From positions 1-62,264 of the forward strand of contig NZ_KB892765.1 of assembly GCF_000373925.1 (NCBI RefSeq): a DNA stretch of 62,264 nt. The letters are read 5' to 3'. The translations under genes were made by a program, and so were the position numbers. This document shows, one piece after another, positions 21,733 to 43,060 of the stretch (positions are counted from its first letter, which is position 1; every line of letters begins with the position of its first letter). A model generated the notes under the pieces. That model was not told the DNA's origin. It did not search any database and was given only the letters and a program-made list of their open reading frames with translations. This DNA is from Actinopolymorpha alba DSM 45243 (GTDB taxonomy: Bacteria; Actinomycetota; Actinomycetes; Propionibacteriales; Actinopolymorphaceae).

Positions 21733-22506
21733 GTGCGGGAAGAGGTGTCGCCACGGGACCGGTTCGTCACCGTCTACGGCTTCCGGCCGGTGCTCGCGGC
21801 GCTGGCGGACGACCGGCTCTCCATCGACAAGGTGCTCGTCGCCGAGGGGGCGCGGGGCCCGTCCTTGCGCGAGATCGTCGCGGCTGCGGATGCGCGTGCG
21901 GTGCCGGTTCGCCGGGTCCCGCCGCACCGGCTCACGTTGCTGTCGGGCAACCCGCGCCATGACAACGGCGTACTCGCCGATGTGGTGGCGCCTCGGATGC
22001 GAACGCTGGCGACGGCACTCGAGGCGCGACCACACGAGCGGCCCCAGACCATTCTGGTCCTCGACGGCATCAAGACCCCGGCGAACGTCGGGATGATCCT
22101 GCGGACCGCGACCGCCGCTGGCCTCGACGGTGTGGTGGTGCCGCATCGCGGGGTCGCCGACCTCGACCCCCTGGTGGTGAAGGCGTCCGCGGGCGTGGCG
22201 TTCCACGCGCCGGTGCTGCGCTGCGACACCGCGGAGGAGGCGGCCGAGCGGTTGGTCGAGGCCGGCTACACCCTGGTGGGGCTCGCGGCCGACGGGTCGG
22301 AGTCACTCTTCGAGGCGGAGATCCCGAGCCCGGTGGCATTCTTCCTGGGGGGCGAGACCGACGGCGTGAGCCCGGCCGCGCGGGCGTACATCGGCGCATG
22401 GGTGAGCATCCCGATGCCGGGCGACGTGGAGTCGCTGAACGTCGCGAGTGCCGCGGCGGTCGTGGCGTTCGAGGTCGTCCGCCGCCGTCTCACGGTGCGC
22501 GCGTAG
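21733..22506 (+). CDS. SpoU/TrmH family RNA 2'-O-methyltransferase
   Basis: 257 residues. The three SpoU (SPOUT) motifs are present: motif 1 DGIKTPANVGMILRTATAAG, motif 2 FFLGGETDGVS and motif 3 SIPMPGDVESLNVASAAAVV. An N-terminal substrate-binding domain (VYGFRPVLAAL) indicates an rRNA or tRNA ribose methyltransferase. GTG start. The target nucleotide cannot be assigned. Confidence 0.92.
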   Translation: MREEVSPRDRFVTVYGFRPVLAALADDRLSIDKVLVAEGARGPSLREIVAAADARAVPVRRVPPHRLTLLSGNPRHDNGVLADVVAPRMRTLATALEARPHERPQTILVLDGIKTPANVGMILRTATAAGLDGVVVPHRGVADLDPLVVKASAGVAFHAPVLRCDTAEEAAERLVEAGYTLVGLAADGSESLFEAEIPSPVAFFLGGETDGVSPAARAYIGAWVSIPMPGDVESLNVASAAAVVAFEVVRRRLTVRA

Positions 22507-33208: not shown

Positions 33209-33886
33209 TCATCTCCCTTCCTTCGCACGGCCGCCGCGTTCCTGTCGTGATGTTGACCCGGGACGCGGCTTGGCCGGTGCGTCGGCGGGGAGCAGGCCGA
33301 CCTGCCGGTAGAGCTCTCGAAGGTAGCGTCGCATCTCCGCTGTGTCGGGCGGATCTGGCTGGAGTACGCGGTAGATGACAGCGCCGGCCATCATGTCGAT
33401 CAGTACGTCAAGGTCGGCGTCGGCTGGCAGTCTGCCCGCCCGTTTCGCCTGGTCGAGCATCGCGCTCGCGGCTTCCCGCCGCGGCACGATGTAGTGCTTC
33501 CAGTACGTCGCCATCAGCGCGGGGTGGCTCACGCTGGACCCGAGGATGCGCGCGACCAACGCGCGGAACTCCTGGCTCGCGGCCAGCTCGGCCGACTCGT
33601 CCAGCATGCTCTCCAAGAGTTGTCTCGGCTCCGCGCGTTCCATTTCGGCGTTCGAGGGCCAGTCGCGGTGATCCTCGATCATCCACTCGATGGCGTGTGC
33701 GGCGAGCACCTCCTTCGACGCCCACCGCCGGTACACAGTCAGCTTGCCGACTCCGGCTCGCTTGGCGACCTGCTCGATGCTCATGCCCTCGACGCCCCGC
33801 TCGATGAACAGCTCCAACGCGGCCCGCAGGATCGCTCGGTCGACCTCCGGATCGCGAGGGCGACCGCGGCCACGCGGCTGTGTCAC
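33209..33886 (-). CDS. TetR family regulator, coupled to the FAD monooxygenase
   Basis: 225 residues. The helix-turn-helix is ILRAALELFIERGVEGMSIE, then QVAKRAGVGKLTVYRRW near residues 17-55. The C-terminal ligand domain is of the TetR_C class with EFRALVARIL. The GTG start overlaps the stop of the monooxygenase gene (GTGA), so both come from one message. It probably represses its own operon; AT-rich inverted repeats lie upstream of the monooxygenase. Confidence 0.9.
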   Translation of the reverse strand: MTQPRGRGRPRDPEVDRAILRAALELFIERGVEGMSIEQVAKRAGVGKLTVYRRWASKEVLAAHAIEWMIEDHRDWPSNAEMERAEPRQLLESMLDESAELAASQEFRALVARILGSSVSHPALMATYWKHYIVPRREAASAMLDQAKRAGRLPADADLDVLIDMMAGAVIYRVLQPDPPDTAEMRRYLRELYRQVGLLPADAPAKPRPGSTSRQERGGRAKEGR

Positions 33887-35391
33887 TGGGAGACCTGCCC
33901 ACGCTGTAACGCGGTCTTCAGCCAACGGTCCAGGCTGGCCACATCGCTGCCACGCCAGGCCAGGTGGGCGTCCGGCCGTACGAGCATGGTCTGCTCGTCG
34001 TCGTGTCGAAGCATGCCGACATGATCGCCGAGTCGTTGCCGGACGGCGGTTTGGAGGTCGTCCCCAGCGGCGCGGGCCATCAAGAGTGCCCAGCGCCCGC
34101 CAAGCTCGGCGTGCAGCCGAGAGGCGCTGCCGTCCGCGCATACGACCGCGAGATCGGGTACGCGATCGCCCGGCCGAGGCTTGGCGCCGCGGCCGCCCAG
34201 CGGCCCCTTGCGGTAGCTCACCCACAGCTGCGATGTGGTGTAAGTCGCCCAGCGTTGGATGCTCGGCAGGTTGAACAGCCGCACGATCATGCGGTCCCGC
34301 AGGAACCGCCCGATCGGGCTGCTGGCGATGTTTACCTTGGTGACGTTCGCGGTGCCGCGCAGCACATCGGTCGCGAGTGGGCGCCGTTCGGCTTCGTAGG
34401 AGTTGAGCAGTGCCGCGTCCGCCTTGCCTTGGACGACGAGCGCGAGCTTCCAGGCGAGGTTCTCCGCGTCGCCTACGCCGGTGAGCATGCCCTGGCCACC
34501 GAACGGCGCGTGTGCGTGCGCAGCGTCGCCCGCGAGGAAGATGCGCCCGTGCCTGTAGCGGTCGGCCAGCCGACGGTGGATGGTGAACAGCGAGAGCCAT
34601 TCGGCCTCGCAGATGTGCACTTGCTTGCCGCTGCGTTCCGGCAGGATCTGCCGGAACCGGTCGAGGATCTCCTGCTCACTGGGCTTGTCGCCGTTGCCAC
34701 GCCCTGGGTCGTAGGCAATCAGCCGCCACAGGTCGTCGCGGCCGCTCGCGGGGGCGGGCATCGGCATCGCGCCGAGCATGCCGCTCGGGTGAATCCAGCC
34801 GCTGGTTCCGGTGCGGTCGAGGTCCCAGTCAAGACGCAGGTCGGCCAGCAGGAAACGCTCGCTGAGCTTGACGCCGGGAAAGCCGATGCCCGCCAGCTTG
34901 CGGGTTGTGCTTCCGGTGCCGTCGCAGCCGATCACCCAGCCGGCGCGCACTACCTGTCCGTCGCTCAGTGAGACGGTGATGCCGTCGGCGTCCTGGTCGA
35001 CGTCGACGAGCGCCGTCTTCCACTCGGGTACGCCGCCGAGCTGGGCCAGACGGTCTCGCAGGGCGGCTTCGACCTTCGCCTGGGACACCACCATCGGCGG
35101 TGCGGCTGTCTGGTGGCCCGGGTCGCCGAACTTCAGCTTCATGATCGGACGGTCGCCCAGATAGGTGGTGACCTGCGTGGCCCGCAGAGACTCCTCGGGC
35201 AAGGCGCCGAGCGCGCCCAGCCGGTCGAGCACCTCCGAGCCGCGAGCATGCAGAAAGTTGGCCCGGGACGTGGTGGCCGGTCCAGGCGCCCGGTCGACTA
35301 CACGGACAGGAACACCGTGCAGAAGCAGCCCACATGCCAGCGCGAGTCCGGTCGGTCCGGCGCCGACCACCAGAACTTGGGTGGAATCCAA
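33883..35391 (-). CDS. FAD-dependent aromatic-type monooxygenase
   Basis: 502 residues of the PheA/TfdB/RIFMO group (class A flavoprotein hydroxylases). VLVVGAGPTGLALACGLLLH is the FAD-binding GxGxxG; CDGTGSTTRK is the DG motif; GRIFLAGDAAHAHAPFGGQG is the second FAD motif. The C-terminal thioredoxin-like domain is present. NAD(P)H-dependent hydroxylation of an aromatic compound or antibiotic is expected. I chose the TTG at 35391 since AAGGAG lies at the right distance; the GTG at 35397 overlaps the ribosome site. Its partner TetR suggests substrate-induced expression. Confidence 0.88.
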   Translation of the reverse strand: MDSTQVLVVGAGPTGLALACGLLLHGVPVRVVDRAPGPATTSRANFLHARGSEVLDRLGALGALPEESLRATQVTTYLGDRPIMKLKFGDPGHQTAAPPMVVSQAKVEAALRDRLAQLGGVPEWKTALVDVDQDADGITVSLSDGQVVRAGWVIGCDGTGSTTRKLAGIGFPGVKLSERFLLADLRLDWDLDRTGTSGWIHPSGMLGAMPMPAPASGRDDLWRLIAYDPGRGNGDKPSEQEILDRFRQILPERSGKQVHICEAEWLSLFTIHRRLADRYRHGRIFLAGDAAHAHAPFGGQGMLTGVGDAENLAWKLALVVQGKADAALLNSYEAERRPLATDVLRGTANVTKVNIASSPIGRFLRDRMIVRLFNLPSIQRWATYTTSQLWVSYRKGPLGGRGAKPRPGDRVPDLAVVCADGSASRLHAELGGRWALLMARAAGDDLQTAVRQRLGDHVGMLRHDDEQTMLVRPDAHLAWRGSDVASLDRWLKTALQRGQVSQ

Positions 35392-35399
35392 CGTCACTC

Positions 35400-35576: not shown

Positions 35577-35612
35577 ATGCGAGTGGCTCTGCTCCTTACC
35601 GAGCCGCGCTGA
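35577..35612 (+). CDS. Leucine leader peptide MRVALLLTEPR upstream of leuS (editing type)
   Basis: Eleven codons with three consecutive Leu codons (CTG CTC CTT) at positions 5-7. TACCCT at 35565-35570 is a plausible -10 box placing the transcript start at or next to the ATG, so the message may be leaderless. It is followed at once by a stem structure and an intrinsic terminator, then leuS. Classic layout of a ribosome-mediated attenuator sensing charged tRNA-Leu. Confidence 0.75.
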   Translation: MRVALLLTEPR

Positions 35613-35648: not shown

Positions 35649-35675
35649 AACCCCTCCTGCGTGAGGGGTTTTTTG
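35649..35675 (+). terminator. Attenuator terminator upstream of leuS
   Basis: AACCCCTC / GAGGGGTT stem with a 6-nt loop followed by six T's (35669-35674). Strong intrinsic terminator for this genome. It lies between the leader peptide and the leuS start, so it can stop transcription of leuS. Confidence 0.85.
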
Positions 35676-35759: not shown

Positions 35760-38261
<2,502 letters not shown>

Positions 38262-38300: not shown

Positions 38301-38358
38301 TGTTAAGGAGTGGAGACTTTCCCGTGTCCGAACACGGGAAAGTCTCCACTCCTTAACA
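38301..38358. terminator. Perfect 27-bp hairpin after leuS
   Basis: Arms 38301-38327 and 38332-38358 are exact complements (27 bp) with a 4-nt loop CCGA. It follows leuS by 39 bases and probably ends its transcript before the second, separately regulated leuS gene. Confidence 0.8.
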
Positions 38359-38400
38359 TTGGCCTTCCACTGCGTCCCAATACGCCGGTAGTCTTGGTTT

Positions 38401-38430
38401 GTGCGCATGGGTCGCCTCCTTCTTAGGTAG
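38401..38430 (+). CDS. Leucine leader peptide MRMGRLLLR upstream of the second leuS
   Basis: Nine codons from GTG (or MGRLLLR from the ATG at 38407) with three consecutive Leu codons CTC CTT CTT, then AGG TAG. TAGTCT at 38390-38395 is a possible -10 box, so the transcript may start at the GTG itself. No terminator follows; instead the Leu codons are complementary to the ribosome site of the next gene. Confidence 0.75.
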   Translation: MRMGRLLLR

Positions 38431-38518
38431 CCGCGCCGATCTTCAGCGGGTGCTCTCAGCACCGCGTCGGCGTGGCTCTTACGCATGCCGACCAGGATGC
38501 TTTCCTAAGAAGACGAGG
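38415..38518 (+). promoter_or_regulatory. Translational attenuator: leader Leu codons pair with the leuS2 ribosome site
   Basis: CCTC-CTTCTTAGG (38415-38427, the Leu codons) is complementary to CCTAAGAAG-ac-GAGG (38504-38518), with a 2-nt bulge. This includes the GAGG Shine-Dalgarno of leuS2, 7-8 bases before its ATG. A ribosome stalled at the Leu codons would break this helix and free the site. Inside the loop lies the conserved P1 (38430-38436 / 38470-38476) and P2 (38449-38453 / 38459-38463) structure shared with the first leader. Confidence 0.7.
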
Positions 38519-38526
38519 GCCCCATC

Positions 38527-40815
38527 ATGTCCGACACATCGTCTGCGGTCTCCCATCGTTACACCGGGGAGTTGGCCGCCACGATCGAGGCGCGCTGGCA
38601 AAAGTACTGGCGCGAGCACGGCGCCTTCCACACAGCCAATCCCGTCGGCTCGCTCAGCGCGCAAGGCGACGTTGACAGACAGGCAGTTGCCGAGAAGCCG
38701 AAGTTCTACGTACTCGACATGTTCATCGGGCCGTCGGGCACGATGCACGTCGGCCATCCGCTTGGATACGTCGCGACTGACGTCTACGGCAGGTACCTCC
38801 GCATGCGCGGCCACCAGGTGCTGCACGCGTTCGGCTATGACGCGTTCGGACTGCCGGCGGAGCAGTACGCCGTCCAGACCGGCCAGCATCCGCGGATCAC
38901 CACCGAAGAGAACATCGCCACCATCGCGGGCCAGTTGCGCCGTCTGGGGCTGGCGCATGACGAGCGGCGTACGGTCGCGACCACCGACGTCGGCTTCTAC
39001 CGCTGGACGCAGTGGATCTTCCTGAAGATCTTCCACGCGTGGTACGACACCAAGCAGGACAGGGCCCGGCCGATCGCCGACCTGGTGGCGGCGTTCGAGT
39101 CCGGCGAGCGTGCGACCCCTGATGGCCGGCCGTGGTCGACGCTGACGGAAGGCGAACGCCGGCGGCTCATCGACGCGCACCGGCTGGCCTACCTCGACGA
39201 CGTGACCGTGAACTGGTGCCCAGGGCTTGGCACCGTCCTGGCCAACGAGGAGGTCACCGCCGAAGGCCGCAGCGAGCGCGGCAACTTTCCGGTGTATCCG
39301 CGCACGATGCGGCAGTGGATGCTGCGCATCACCGCGTACGCCCACCGGCTGCTCGCCGACCTGGACCTGCTGGACTGGCCCGAGTCGATCAAGGCGCAGC
39401 AGCGCAACTGGATCGGCCGTTCTGAAACAGTTCCGAACGAAGGCGAAGGCGAAGGCGAGGCAGGCAAGGGCACATTGACATACCAGCTGCGCGACTGGGT
39501 GTTCAGCCGGCAGAGGTACTGGGGTGAGCCGTTCCCGATCGTCTACGACGAGCATGGCCCGGTCGCGTTGCCCGAGTCGATGCTGCCGGTCGTGCTGCCC
39601 GAGACGACGGACTTCGCGCCGCGCACGTACGACCCCGAGGACGCGGGTTCGGAGCCAGAGGCGCCACTGGCTCGCCTCCGGGAGTGGGTTTCGGTGCGGT
39701 TGGACCTGGGTGACGGGCCGAAGGACTACCGCAGGGAGACGCACACGATGCCGCAGTGGGCCGGCTCGTGCTGGTACGAACTCCGCTACCTCGACCCCAC
39801 CAACGACGAAGCCTTCTGCGATCCCGCCAACGAGCGTTACTGGATGGGCCCGCAAGGTGACCTTGACGGTGGCGGTGTCGACCTCTATGTCGGTGGCGTC
39901 GAGCATGCGGTGCTCCATCTGTTGTACGCACGCTTCTGGCACAAGGTGCTCCATGACCTCGGCTACGTGTCGAGCCGGGAGCCGTTCCGCCGCCTGGTCA
40001 ACAACGGCTACATCCAGGCGTACTCCTACACCGATGCCCGAGGTGTGTACGTTCCCGCGGCGGAGGTGGAGGAACGCGACGGCGGCTACTACTGGCGGGG
40101 CGAACTGGTACGCCGCAGCCTCGGCAAGATGGGCAAGAGCCTGCGCAACATGGTGACGCCCGACGAGATGTGCGACGAGTACGGCGCCGACACGTTCCGG
40201 GTCTACGTAATGTCAACCGGACCTTTACACGCCTCGCGTCCGTGGGACCCGCACGGCATCGTCGGCGCGCACCGGTTCCTGCAGCGGGTGTGGCGGGCGC
40301 TTGTCGACGAGGAGTCCGGCGCGCTCCGGGTGACCGACTCGCCGGCCGACGACGCGACCAGACGCCTTCTCCACAAGACGATCGACGCGGTACGCCAGGA
40401 CCTGGACGACCTGGCGTTCAACACCGCGATCGCGCGGCTGATGGAATTGGTGCGGGGTGTCGTGGCGTTCGAGGCGGTGCCGCGCGAGGTGGCCGGGCCG
40501 CTGGTCCTCCTGTTGGCGCCGTTCGCACCACACCTGGCCGAGGAGCTGTGGTCGCGGCTCGGGTCGGCTGACTCGCTGGCGTACCTGCCTTATCCGCAAG
40601 CCGATCCGGCGTACCTCACCGAGGATCTGGTGACCTGTGTCGTCCAGGTGGCGGGCCGGGTGCGGGACCGGCTGGAGGTGCCGGCGGCGATCGCGGAGGA
40701 GGCGCTGCGTCAACGCGCCCTTGCGTCGGAGAAGGTACGTGCGGCGCTGGCCGGCCGTGGCGTCCGCACGGTGATCGTACGGGCCCCCAGGCTGGTCAAC
40801 GTCGTCCCTGGCTGA
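38527..40815 (+). CDS. Second leucyl-tRNA synthetase lacking the CP1 editing domain
   Basis: 762 residues. Sequence style follows the long streptomycete/mycobacterial LeuRS ([72 protein letters not shown]), not the neighbouring leuS. HVGH (74-77) and KMGKS (534-538) are kept. After NWIGRSE (294-300) the ~185-residue editing domain is missing; a Gly/Glu linker of about 17 residues leads straight to [19 protein letters not shown] (from 317). So it should activate leucine but be unable to edit. The usual FPYPSG is FIGPSG. The frame is intact and has its own leader peptide, so it is not a decaying copy. Confidence 0.92.
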
Positions 40816-40906: not shown

Positions 40907-40930
40907 ACTGTGTGGGATCCGGAGGCGGAC

Positions 40931-41665
40931 ATGGGAGAACGGATCTATGTCGAGGTCGAGATCAACACTGACCTTGACCAGGTGTGGCAGGCAACCCAGG
41001 ATCCATCGGCGCACCAGCAGTGGGACGCGCGGTTCGGCGAGATCACCTACCTGCCGAAGGATCCGGAGGACGCGGCCGCACCGCAGCGGTTCCGGTACGC
41101 CACCCGGGCGCTGCCGGGGCTGACCATCGACGGCGTGGGCATCAGCGCGGGCGAACGCCAGCGCCCGGACGGCACCCGTACGTCAGCCCTGCGGTTCGCC
41201 TCTGACCATTCGCTCAGCCTGATCCGCTCGGGTGCGGGCTACTGGCGCTACGTCCCGGTCCACGGCGGAGGCGTGCGGTTCCTCACCGGTTACGACTACG
41301 AGCCCGGTTGGGACCGGCTCGGCCCGTATGCCGACAAGGTGTTCCGGCCGCTCTTCGGATGGCTCACCGCGTGGTCGTTCGACCGGCTCCGGCTGTGGCT
41401 CGAGCGCGGGATCACGCCTCGACGAGCGCGCCGCACCGCGCTGGCCGACGCCGGAGCGAGGGTGGCGGCCGTGTTTGTGGCCGTGCTGTTGACCCGCGAC
41501 CTACCGGCCGCCTTGACCCTGGGGGCAGCCGCGGCGTTGGCGGTGGCCGGCGTACTCCTGCCGCCCTCACCCGTCACTCCGGCCGCCCGCCGTTGCCGGC
41601 GGAGGCCATCGGAAGGCCGTGGCGCGGTCGCGCCCGCCACGCTCGCGCGGTTGGAGCGACCATGA
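40931..41665 (+). CDS. SRPBCC-type lipid/ligand-binding protein with C-terminal membrane helices
   Basis: 244 residues. The N-terminal START-like domain (IYVEVEINTDLDQVWQATQD, PSAHQQWDARFGEITYL) is followed by two hydrophobic helices (ARVAAVFVAVLLTRDL and LTLGAAAALAVAGVLLPP) and a basic tail. Such proteins bind hydrophobic ligands. First gene of an operon with DUF4166 and a TetR regulator; ATG after GGAGG. The stop overlaps the next start (ATGA). Confidence 0.82.
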   Translation: MGERIYVEVEINTDLDQVWQATQDPSAHQQWDARFGEITYLPKDPEDAAAPQRFRYATRALPGLTIDGVGISAGERQRPDGTRTSALRFASDHSLSLIRSGAGYWRYVPVHGGGVRFLTGYDYEPGWDRLGPYADKVFRPLFGWLTAWSFDRLRLWLERGITPRRARRTALADAGARVAAVFVAVLLTRDLPAALTLGAAAALAVAGVLLPPSPVTPAARRCRRRPSEGRGAVAPATLARLERP

Positions 41666-42345
41666 CCTCGATCTTCGCGCGCGCCCTCGGCCCCGACTTC
41701 GGCCAGCTTCACCCCGAACTCCAGCGGAGGTTCGGGTTCGACAGCACCGATGGCGCCGCCTGCGTGGGCACTGGGGTGATGGACGAGGTGTGGCGGGGTG
41801 GGGCGTTCACCCTGCCGTTCCTCTACCTGGGGACGACCCGGCACATCCTGTTCCCCGAGCGGGGGAGGAACGTACCTTTCTCGATCGAGAATTTCGCCTA
41901 CCGGGACTCTTTCGGGCGCGAGACCGTGACGTTCGTCCGCACCTTCGACCTGGCGCCGGGGATGCGCCGGCGCTTCGACGCCACCATGGTCTACAGCCCA
42001 CCGCGTGGCCGGATCGTCGACTACCTCGGCACCCACCAGCACCTGGCCGTCGACCTCGACCTTCGGGTCGACAGCGGAGGCGGGCTTCAGATACGTACCG
42101 GCAGCCAGCGGTGCTATGCGGGGTTCCTCGGCGTCCGCCTCCCGTCCGGGATGACCGGAAGTGCGCGCGTACGCGAGTGGTACGACGAAGCGGCCCGACG
42201 TTTCCGGATCGAGGTGGCGGTCGGCAACAAGAGGTTCGGCCCGCTCTTCGGCTATCGGGGCAGCTTCACGGTCGCGTACGTCGACACCAGGCGGCACGTC
42301 GTACCCGCGTCGGTACGCCCGCTGCGGGAGAACCCCCGGGTCTGA
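41662..42345 (+). CDS. DUF4166 protein
   Basis: 227 residues: FARALGPDFGQLHPELQRRF at the N-terminus, then FGRETVTFVRTFDL and RIVDYLGTHQHLAVDLDL, the pattern of DUF4166. Function of the family is unknown; it is often found fused or adjacent to oxidoreductases or SRPBCC proteins. Coupled to the preceding gene by ATGA overlap. Confidence 0.82.
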   Translation: MTSIFARALGPDFGQLHPELQRRFGFDSTDGAACVGTGVMDEVWRGGAFTLPFLYLGTTRHILFPERGRNVPFSIENFAYRDSFGRETVTFVRTFDLAPGMRRRFDATMVYSPPRGRIVDYLGTHQHLAVDLDLRVDSGGGLQIRTGSQRCYAGFLGVRLPSGMTGSARVREWYDEAARRFRIEVAVGNKRFGPLFGYRGSFTVAYVDTRRHVVPASVRPLRENPRV

Positions 42346-42430
42346 GAGGGTCGTGGCGCGCGACCCGCGTCGCACCACCGAGCGGACGACCAAGCGCACG
42401 ACCAACCGCACCACCAGCTGAGGAGCTCGA

Positions 42431-43060
42431 TTGGCGGACACCAGGCAGCGCCTGCTCGACGGCGCGATCAGCACCATCCGCAGCCACGGCATCGCGGGTG
42501 TGTCCGCCCGGACCATCGCCGCCACCGCGGGCGTCAACCAGGCGCTGGTCTTCTATCACTACGGCAGCGTCGACGCGTTGCTGGTGGCGGCCTGCGAGGC
42601 CGCCACCGCCGATCGGCTCTCGGCGTACACCGAGCGGCTCGCGAAGGTGACCACGCTGCGCGAGTTGCTCGACGTGGGGCAGGCGCTGCACGCCGAGGAG
42701 CGGGAACGCGGCAACGTGGGTGTGCTCGCGCAGATGCTCGCCGGCGGCCAGCAGGACGAGAAGCTCGCCAGTGCCACCGCGGGCGCGCTGCGGCTGTGGA
42801 CCGACGAGATCGAGTCCGTACTGCGAAGGGTGCTGGCGGGATCGCCGTTCGCCGAGATCGCCGACATCCCTGGGCTCGCCCGTGCGGCGTCGGCCGCTTT
42901 CATCGGCTTGGAGCTTTATGAAGGCGTGGACGCCCCAGGGGCGCAGCGGGCGCTTGCGGCGCTCGAGCAACTGGCCGTGCTGGTGGAGGTCGTGGACGAC
43001 CTTGGTCCGGTCGCCCGCCGGGCGCTCCGCTCCAGGGTGGCTAAGAGGTCGCGCAGATAG
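42431..43060 (+). CDS. TetR family regulator of the SRPBCC-DUF4166 operon
   Basis: 209 residues. The helix-turn-helix LLDGAISTIRSHGIAGVSAR, then TIAATAGVNQALVFYHYGS, lies in the first 50 residues. The TTG start is preceded by GAGGAG. Because two matching palindromes sit before the first gene of the operon, it most likely represses the three genes, itself included. The gene end is inside a long terminator stem. Confidence 0.9.
   Translation: MADTRQRLLDGAISTIRSHGIAGVSARTIAATAGVNQALVFYHYGSVDALLVAACEAATADRLSAYTERLAKVTTLRELLDVGQALHAEERERGNVGVLAQMLAGGQQDEKLASATAGALRLWTDEIESVLRRVLAGSPFAEIADIPGLARAASAAFIGLELYEGVDAPGAQRALAALEQLAVLVEVVDDLGPVARRALRSRVAKRSRR

Follow-up and report, generated by a model that had tools for sequence, protein, structure and literature searches.

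A 62,264-nucleotide stretch of the genome of Actinopolymorpha alba DSM 45243 (contig NZ_KB892765.1, the whole of which is called the window here) carries two genes for leucyl-tRNA synthetase (LeuRS): leuS1, which encodes an ordinary enzyme (LeuRS1), and, beside it, leuS2, which encodes a bacterial-type LeuRS (LeuRS2) without the CP1 editing domain. An earlier note on this DNA, made from the sequence alone, had singled out leuS2 for the loss of CP1; the loss of an invariant tyrosine from the active site and the leucine leaders ahead of both genes make the finding more interesting than that. Because the pair is kept in relatives behind such leaders, LeuRS2 looks like a working specialised enzyme and not a broken copy. 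We hold it about evenly probable that LeuRS2 is an auxiliary LeuRS, raised on shortage of Leu-tRNA and charging tRNA-Leu without post-transfer editing. The features discussed are collected in Table 1.

The leuS2 frame runs from an ATG to a TGA without an internal stop (762 residues). Its product scores 671.6 bits against TIGR00396 (NCBIfam leuS_bact), above the cut-off of 548.4, and LeuRS1 (frame from 35661) reaches 945.7 bits. The editing-domain family PF13603 (Pfam), present in LeuRS1 with 210 bits, is absent from LeuRS2, where 16 residues separate NWIGRSE (294-300) from LTYQLRDW (317-324); we counted 186 between NWIGRSE and TYRLRDW of LeuRS1. An open frame, loss of the whole editing domain and about 185 residues at the same place in the neighbour had all been claimed in the earlier note and hold up. 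The note had also considered that CP1 might lie elsewhere in the chain. Of this there is no sign by Pfam, and the whole chain aligns to LeuRS. Nor did a CP1 domain in a separate protein come to light in the window's genome: across the eight family genomes described below, PF13603 matches LeuRS1 and gives one partial match (57-58 positions) per genome, traced to ValRS in the window's genome alone.

The family sample comprised the window's genome, five genomes of the same genus (G001-G005), one of a second genus (G007) and one of a third (G006); matches unbroken across the CP1 junction were sought in all eight and in a set of 38 genomes. Seven of the eight family genomes carry the leuS1-leuS2 pair that the note had proposed to look for, and in none of the seven does leuS2 carry the full domain. 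LeuRS2 is 74-77% identical to the window's in the five congeners and 69% in G007. From QQR[N/Q]WI to the conserved DW the window has 26 residues and G003 has 27; four genomes have 14, and G007 has just 4, at the CP1 junction. Since leuS2 lies near leuS1 in six further genomes with differing linkers, an assembly or sequencing error can be ruled out. In G002 and G004 the LeuRS2 match stops near residue 680 and resumes past an insertion. The two genes lie close together in most genomes but some 4 kb apart in G001 and G004; the intervening segments of these two (L027 9571-13187 and L030 9746-13750, respectively) are mutually 45% identical in one frame.

LeuRS1 and LeuRS2 of the window are 42% identical over 658 aligned positions (41-43% in the four genomes compared), which rules out a recent duplication, as the note had held. 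Its further suggestion, that LeuRS2 is of the long, streptomycete-like type, agrees with 63-70% identity to three long-type LeuRS and with a tree in which the seven LeuRS2 form a single clade (Shimodaira-Hasegawa-like approximate likelihood-ratio support 99) among actinobacterial long-type LeuRS. This clade is sister (join support 94) to a 25-member set that includes the long-type LeuRS from five further genomes of the order; the tree is a quick LG+G4 reconstruction of 48 rows, M. mobile not among them, in which two outgroup rows drew long-branch warnings. Many genomes of the order show a short-type LeuRS alone. In G006, which has no leuS2, leuS1 is followed after about 160 bases by the next conserved gene. 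LeuRS1 of G006 is closer to the window's (82% identity) than is that of G007 (79%), so that the simplest history would be a single loss of CP1 before the genera split, followed by loss of leuS2 in G006. The leuS2 frame is open in all seven genomes, although synonymous differences per site reach 0.47 among congeners and 0.51 in the comparison with G007. GC content at third codon positions is 0.87-0.91 for LeuRS2 and 0.93-0.96 for LeuRS1. Ratios of nonsynonymous to synonymous differences (dN/dS; Nei-Gojobori, conserved part of the gene) were 0.139-0.277 for LeuRS2 (16 pairs, one with G007) and 0.083-0.255 for LeuRS1 (15 pairs), which indicates that LeuRS2 is under purifying selection, somewhat less constrained than LeuRS1.

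To see which residues had changed, we aligned the seven LeuRS2 with E. coli LeuRS, whose numbering is used below, and 105 CP1-containing rows (100 distinct, five being second copies of the same gene). Of these rows, 13 came from the family and order; the other 92 remained of 104 candidate frames, drawn from fetched loci, after filtering for coverage. Within positions 224-416, 36 of 45 conserved positions deviate in all seven LeuRS2; of the other nine, 224, 225 and 227 are flank residues, and at six a stray letter of the linker happens to match in one row or a few. Outside this region 140 positions are near-invariant (at least 95% conserved), and 123 of them are retained in all seven. The sole two altered in every LeuRS2 are Tyr43 and Gln566; fifteen more deviate in part of the set, Pro42, Arg418 and Asn723 being the most frequent (five of seven each). 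The register at Tyr43 is secure, being fixed by the motif M/Q-F-x-G-P-S-G, and the loop that leads up to the HIGH motif matches E. coli in length, with one residue less than the other long types have. In G007 Val-Val replaces Asn565-Gln566 before Gly567. Phe41, Asp80, Tyr499, Tyr527, Glu532, His533, His537 and both KMSKS lysines are unchanged in all seven. The claim that the catalytic core had been kept thus stands for the HIGH- and KMSKS-type motifs, Asp80, Glu532, His533 and His537, and fails at Tyr43 and Gln566. The HVGH and KMGKS motifs are intact, as stated in the note, though they are the normal state of the long type and not peculiar to LeuRS2 (Val at position 50 in 97 of 105 rows; Gly at position 621 in 35 of 35 long-type rows).

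Tyr43 is described as invariant in all LeuRSs; it rotates by about 103 degrees and stacks on the N-CA-C plane of the leucine, and it has been proposed to open and so give room to the 3' adenosine of the tRNA (PMC9424281). The LeuRS of Mycoplasma mobile retains this tyrosine (MFPYPSG, by alignment to 3ZIU) and has no CP1, so that loss of the tyrosine is not forced by loss of CP1.

An AlphaFold2 model of LeuRS2 (32 sequences) had a mean predicted local distance difference test score (pLDDT) of 85.7 and a predicted template modelling score of 0.84; pLDDT fell below 50 at residues 1-4, 73-76 (an active-site loop) and 300-315 (the linker). The best sequence match in the PDB is 3ZIU. In a fold search (VIA-align 2), rows 1-49 were LeuRS (Z 31.9-35.0) and row 50 was ValRS (Z 27.4); the E. 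coli aminoacylation complex 4aq7 gave Z 34.4 with a root-mean-square deviation of 2.9 over 644 aligned residues, and M. mobile LeuRS 3ziu gave Z 33.3 with 2.9 over 551. The modelled fold is that of a LeuRS, and fold says nothing on activity.

Each of the 15 leuS genes of the family sample (eight leuS1 and seven leuS2) is preceded by a short open reading frame (ORF) in which three or four Leu codons follow one another; the ORF ahead of leuS2 in G001 reads MSVVLLLTGPR. Eleven outer stem pairs form in each of these leaders, pairs 20:60, 24:56 and 27:53 varying yet staying paired, and an inner stem forms in 13-14, being missing ahead of leuS1 in G007. By reading, 13 leaders have a terminator-like hairpin of the CCCCTC..GAGGGG type with a T-rich tail. 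In the two that do not, those of leuS2 in the window and in G007, the Leu run pairs with the ribosome-binding-site segment in helices of 9 bp, matched by 47 (window) and 8 (G007) of 5000 base shuffles of the 28-base target; the other five leuS2 leaders give 5-6 bp. This comparison was made on two sequences after the fold had revealed the helix, so that it is a hint, no more, that pairing of the Leu run with the Shine-Dalgarno (SD) sequence could control leuS2 in these two genomes. None of 200 shuffles of the window's leuS2 leader folds as well as the leader itself (z -3.88). No T-box or other Rfam element reached its gathering score in the window.

Leaders of this kind have precedents. In Streptomyces, leuS attenuators with a leader peptide containing a Leu run have been predicted (PMC1262725, PMC8079986), and in the LEU element of leuA the Leu run is reported to pair with the SD box, although leuA leader mutations in S. 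coelicolor are described as being at odds with classical attenuation (PMC1262725). The family's leuS2 leaders resemble both of these published types, a Leu-run leader with a terminator for leuS and Leu run:SD pairing for leuA (PMC1262725, PMC8079986), and differ in that both forms occur ahead of one gene: the terminator in G001-G005, the pairing in the window and G007. Read by eye, the window's leuS2 leader begins 6 bases past TAGTCT, as does that of leuS1 past TACCCT; such starts fit the leuL2 transcript of S. lividans, which is reported to be leaderless (MRAVRLLLSEPR; PMC8079986). Applied to the 900 bases ahead of long-type leuS in five further genomes of the order, the same pattern found no Leu leader, so that the leader need not be general in the order. 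The leaders are of the leucine attenuator type, with a response in vivo predicted from their sequence. As both genes bear one, induction on Leu-tRNA shortage is likely, a probable behaviour that would fit all three benefits put forward in the note: analogue tolerance, escape from CP1-docking inhibitors and regulated mistranslation.

Table 1. Features of the leuS1-leuS2 region, in window coordinates
Feature	Position	Strand	Basis or remark
leuS1 leader ORF, MRVALLLTEPR	35577..35612	+	
Terminator-like hairpin and T run between leader and leuS1	35649..35675	+	sequence and fold
leuS1, ordinary LeuRS with CP1, 833 aa	35760..38261	+	start codon picked by eye
CP1 editing domain (PF13603) of leuS1	36471..37022	+	
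-10-like TAGTCT before leuS2 leader	38389-38394	+	by eye
leuS2 leader ORF, V-R-M-G-R-L-L-L-R	38401..38430	+	GTG start, chosen by eye; inner ATG 38407; three Leu codons 38416-38424
Core stem-loop of leuS2 leader, common to leuS1 leader	38430..38476	+	11 outer pairs in 15/15 leaders
CCTAAGAAG, pairing with CTTCTTAGG of the Leu-codon run (38419-38427)	38504..38512	+	beside SD-like GAGG 38515-38518; in minimum free energy fold
leuS2, CP1-less LeuRS, 762 aa	38527..40815	+	open frame; 6 other genomes carry full-length homologues
Codon 68, Gly where E. coli LeuRS has Tyr43	38728..38730	+	Gly 7/7 LeuRS2; Tyr in E. coli and 105/105 other rows
HVGH, HIGH-type motif, residues 74-77	38746..38757	+	
Linker replacing the CP1 editing domain, residues 301-316	39427..39474	+	sequence; residues 300-315 pLDDT <50
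Codon 493, Asn at the Gln566 position of E. coli LeuRS	40003..40005	+	Asn 6/7, Val 1/7 (G007); Gln in E. coli and 105/105 other rows
KMGKS, KMSKS-type motif, residues 534-538	40126..40140	+	

Within about 19 kb, the conserved neighbours of the pair are PNPOx, DegV, APH-fold and competence genes. The gene directly after leuS2 is PNPOx or DegV in G001-G005, and about 5.6 kb intervene in G007. In the window a weak Polyketide_cyc2-like gene, a DUF4166 gene and a TetR regulator (40910-43057) lie between leuS2 and a PNPOx-like gene, and a flavin adenine dinucleotide (FAD) ring hydroxylase-like gene (FAD_binding_3, Rng_hyd_C; 33886-35397) sits a short way upstream of the leuS1 leader, on the opposite strand; the latter was not seen among the ORFs conserved in relatives. 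The ring hydroxylase-like, Polyketide_cyc2-like and TetR genes stand near the pair in the window alone. A perfect 26-bp palindrome between leuS1 and leuS2 (38302-38357) belongs to a dispersed repeat found at 22 distinct genomic places including this gap (42 matches over both strands). A scan of all 46 tRNA hits of the genome (about 96% complete) shows one tRNA-Leu for each of TAG, CAG, GAG, TAA and CAA; the five are ordinary, and no dedicated extra tRNA-Leu was found among these hits. The tRNA-Leu(CAA), at L190 45-121, is called by ARAGORN with just 77 bases, fewer than a long variable arm would lead one to expect. A 98-base tRNA-Pro called by ARAGORN at 22392-22489 is probably false, with no Rfam match and a fold z of -1.21 against shuffles.

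We also asked how widespread such enzymes are. In the sample of the order, 7 of 391 genomes match at 1e-199, all within the family, with no CP1-less LeuRS beyond it. Among the matches listed for 394 genomes of the class, solely the window's spans the CP1 junction unbroken, and at 1e-215 the phylum sample returned 1 of 396 genomes, the window's own. In the phylum of a Terribacillus genome, 1 of 398 matched at 1e-80, and that one has CP1. On plasmids 78 records match, the best 15 of the 78 all split in two pieces. These samples overlap, and thresholds this strict would pass over a remote CP1-less LeuRS; in Bacillota the test has little power, since matches there also break at the leucine-specific domain. 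CP1 was detected at 103 of 104 other LeuRS loci, the remaining one (L105) being cut by a contig edge. Within the samples searched no CP1-less LeuRS came to light outside the family, and the literature searched, mostly outside subscription journals, yielded no description of such an enzyme or such a pair. What is new is probably a CP1-less LeuRS as a second and probably regulated enzyme. A LeuRS without CP1 is as such already known, that of M. mobile being described as naturally lacking it (PMC3834818).

In both the M. mobile enzyme (3ZIU) and LeuRS2 a short linker replaces CP1 at the same place; the M. mobile enzyme keeps the tyrosine of MFPYPSG, where LeuRS2 has Gly. In genomes of 6.4-10.6 Mb, LeuRS2 is encoded by a second gene next to that of an editing LeuRS, unlike its M. 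mobile counterpart, which we take to be the sole LeuRS of a reduced genome. The grouping of LeuRS2 with CP1-containing actinobacterial LeuRS speaks for a loss of CP1 separate from that in M. mobile. Other counterparts are partial. Sulfolobaceae LeuRS-I and halobacterial LeuRS2 are likewise duplicated LeuRS, for which either disruption of the editing domain or very low activity is reported (PMC9437257), but they are archaeal and CP1 is disrupted, not absent, in LeuRS-I; here they are set apart by their descriptions, not by sequence. AgnB2 of Agrobacterium K84 is, like LeuRS2, an extra LeuRS and is described as resisting an adenylate-like inhibitor in self-immunity (PMC5059758). It has KQSKS and is part of an antibiotic system, whereas LeuRS2 has KMGKS, no CP1 and no conserved antibiotic cluster nearby. 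In bacterial isoleucyl-tRNA synthetase (IleRS), a pocket tyrosine reported to control transfer and adenylate hydrolysis is replaced in the mupirocin-resistant type, the griseus enzyme being strongly resistant (PMC4861432). From motif spacing we infer that this residue, Tyr59, corresponds to Tyr43 of LeuRS. Resistant IleRS2 thus resembles LeuRS2 as a second synthetase type whose pocket tyrosine ahead of the HIGH motif is replaced (PMC4861432), and differs from it in retaining editing and in having Phe or Thr, not Gly.

We propose that a long-type, streptomycete-like LeuRS lost CP1 and was kept beside a distantly related short-type editing LeuRS. A drop in Leu-tRNA, whether from leucine shortage or from a block of LeuRS1, would stall the ribosome at the Leu codons of the leader and turn on the downstream leuS. 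In G001-G005 this would happen by escape from the terminator, and in the other two leuS2 leaders, those of the window and G007, by release of the ribosome-binding site from the Leu-codon run. LeuRS2 would then charge the five ordinary tRNA-Leu without post-transfer editing, and LeuRS1, with its CP1 intact, may clear part of the mischarged tRNA. That LeuRS2 charges tRNA-Leu with leucine seems to us likely. The change of Tyr43 to Gly would remove a lid that stacks on leucine and must swing aside for the tRNA end; it may ease transfer in an enzyme without CP1, or blunt inhibitors that mimic leucyl-adenylate. LeuRS2 offers no CP1 docking site, and a pocket without Tyr43 is possibly poorer for adenylate mimics, which makes a back-up enzyme, one that LeuRS inhibitors acting via CP1 or the leucine pocket would be unable to stop, its likeliest role. 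That insensitivity to inhibitors is the main benefit is a tentative view, to which we give somewhat less than an even chance.

Several observations weigh against this proposal. Since Tyr43 is described as invariant and as stacking on leucine (PMC9424281), its loss may cripple leucine activation. Pro42 has drifted in five of seven LeuRS2, Arg418 and Asn723 have each become His in five of seven, and Met40 is Gln in G007. G006 lacks leuS2, and dN/dS of LeuRS2 lies above that of LeuRS1 in 15 of 15 matched pairs. Such a leader is usual for leuS and may have been inherited without a special role; and no conserved antibiotic gene cluster surrounds the pair in the stretches compared, no dedicated cluster search having been made. 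Some of these points would suit a decaying relic, an older long-type LeuRS displaced by the short type and on its way out: the absence from G006, the higher dN/dS, the differing linker lengths and the visibility of the short type alone in many genomes of the order. A relic would hardly be expected, however, to stay open in seven of seven genomes across the synonymous distances given above, to keep 123 of 140 near-invariant positions in every copy and to retain, even remodel, its own leader, and we regard decay as improbable.

Other readings accept a working enzyme and assign it a different product. Regulated loss of fidelity, in which the attenuator raises an editing-free LeuRS2 that takes norvaline, isoleucine or methionine under leucine limitation and so yields statistical proteins, LeuRS1 clearing part of the mischarged tRNA, would agree with the absence of CP1 and of any identified separate editing domain, with the leucine leader on leuS2 and with the lost pocket lid. 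Editing-deficient LeuRS is reported to cause misincorporation at Leu codons in mycoplasmas and in a eukaryote whose LeuRS has an editing-domain deletion (PMC7373986). However, leuS1 has the same leader, so that the editing enzyme should rise alongside LeuRS2; there is no sign of selection for relaxed selectivity, and the altered pocket might equally be more selective. We therefore think this reading unlikely. The eukaryote mentioned is reportedly a microsporidium. A changed substrate, with Gly at Tyr43 and Asn or Val at Gln566 serving another amino acid or an analogue, for tRNA-Leu or for an adenylate used outside translation, seems slightly less probable again. In its favour, the only two near-invariant positions outside CP1 that change in all seven include the one that stacks on leucine (PMC9424281), Met40 has changed in G007, and Sulfolobaceae LeuRS-I is reported to form adenylate without charging tRNA (PMC9437257). 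Yet Phe41, Asp80, Tyr499, Tyr527, His533 and His537 are intact throughout, the leader reads leucine codons, and no conserved biosynthetic cluster lies alongside within the stretches compared. It is quite unlikely that a LeuRS2 kept in most of the family, controlled by leucine starvation, non-proofreading and with a reshaped pocket loads tRNA-Leu with a non-leucine residue or a mixture, which would give leucine codons a natural switchable meaning.

LeuRS serves both as a model of proofreading and as a target for drugs. Benzoxaboroles with tRNA bind in its editing site, as titles of PDB entries also state. A natural CP1-less LeuRS with Tyr43 replaced, standing beside an editing one, lets the roles of CP1 and of this tyrosine be asked directly. 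The pair likewise lets one ask whether editing-free charging is tolerated while an editing enzyme is present, and whether members of this family hold a ready escape from LeuRS inhibitors.

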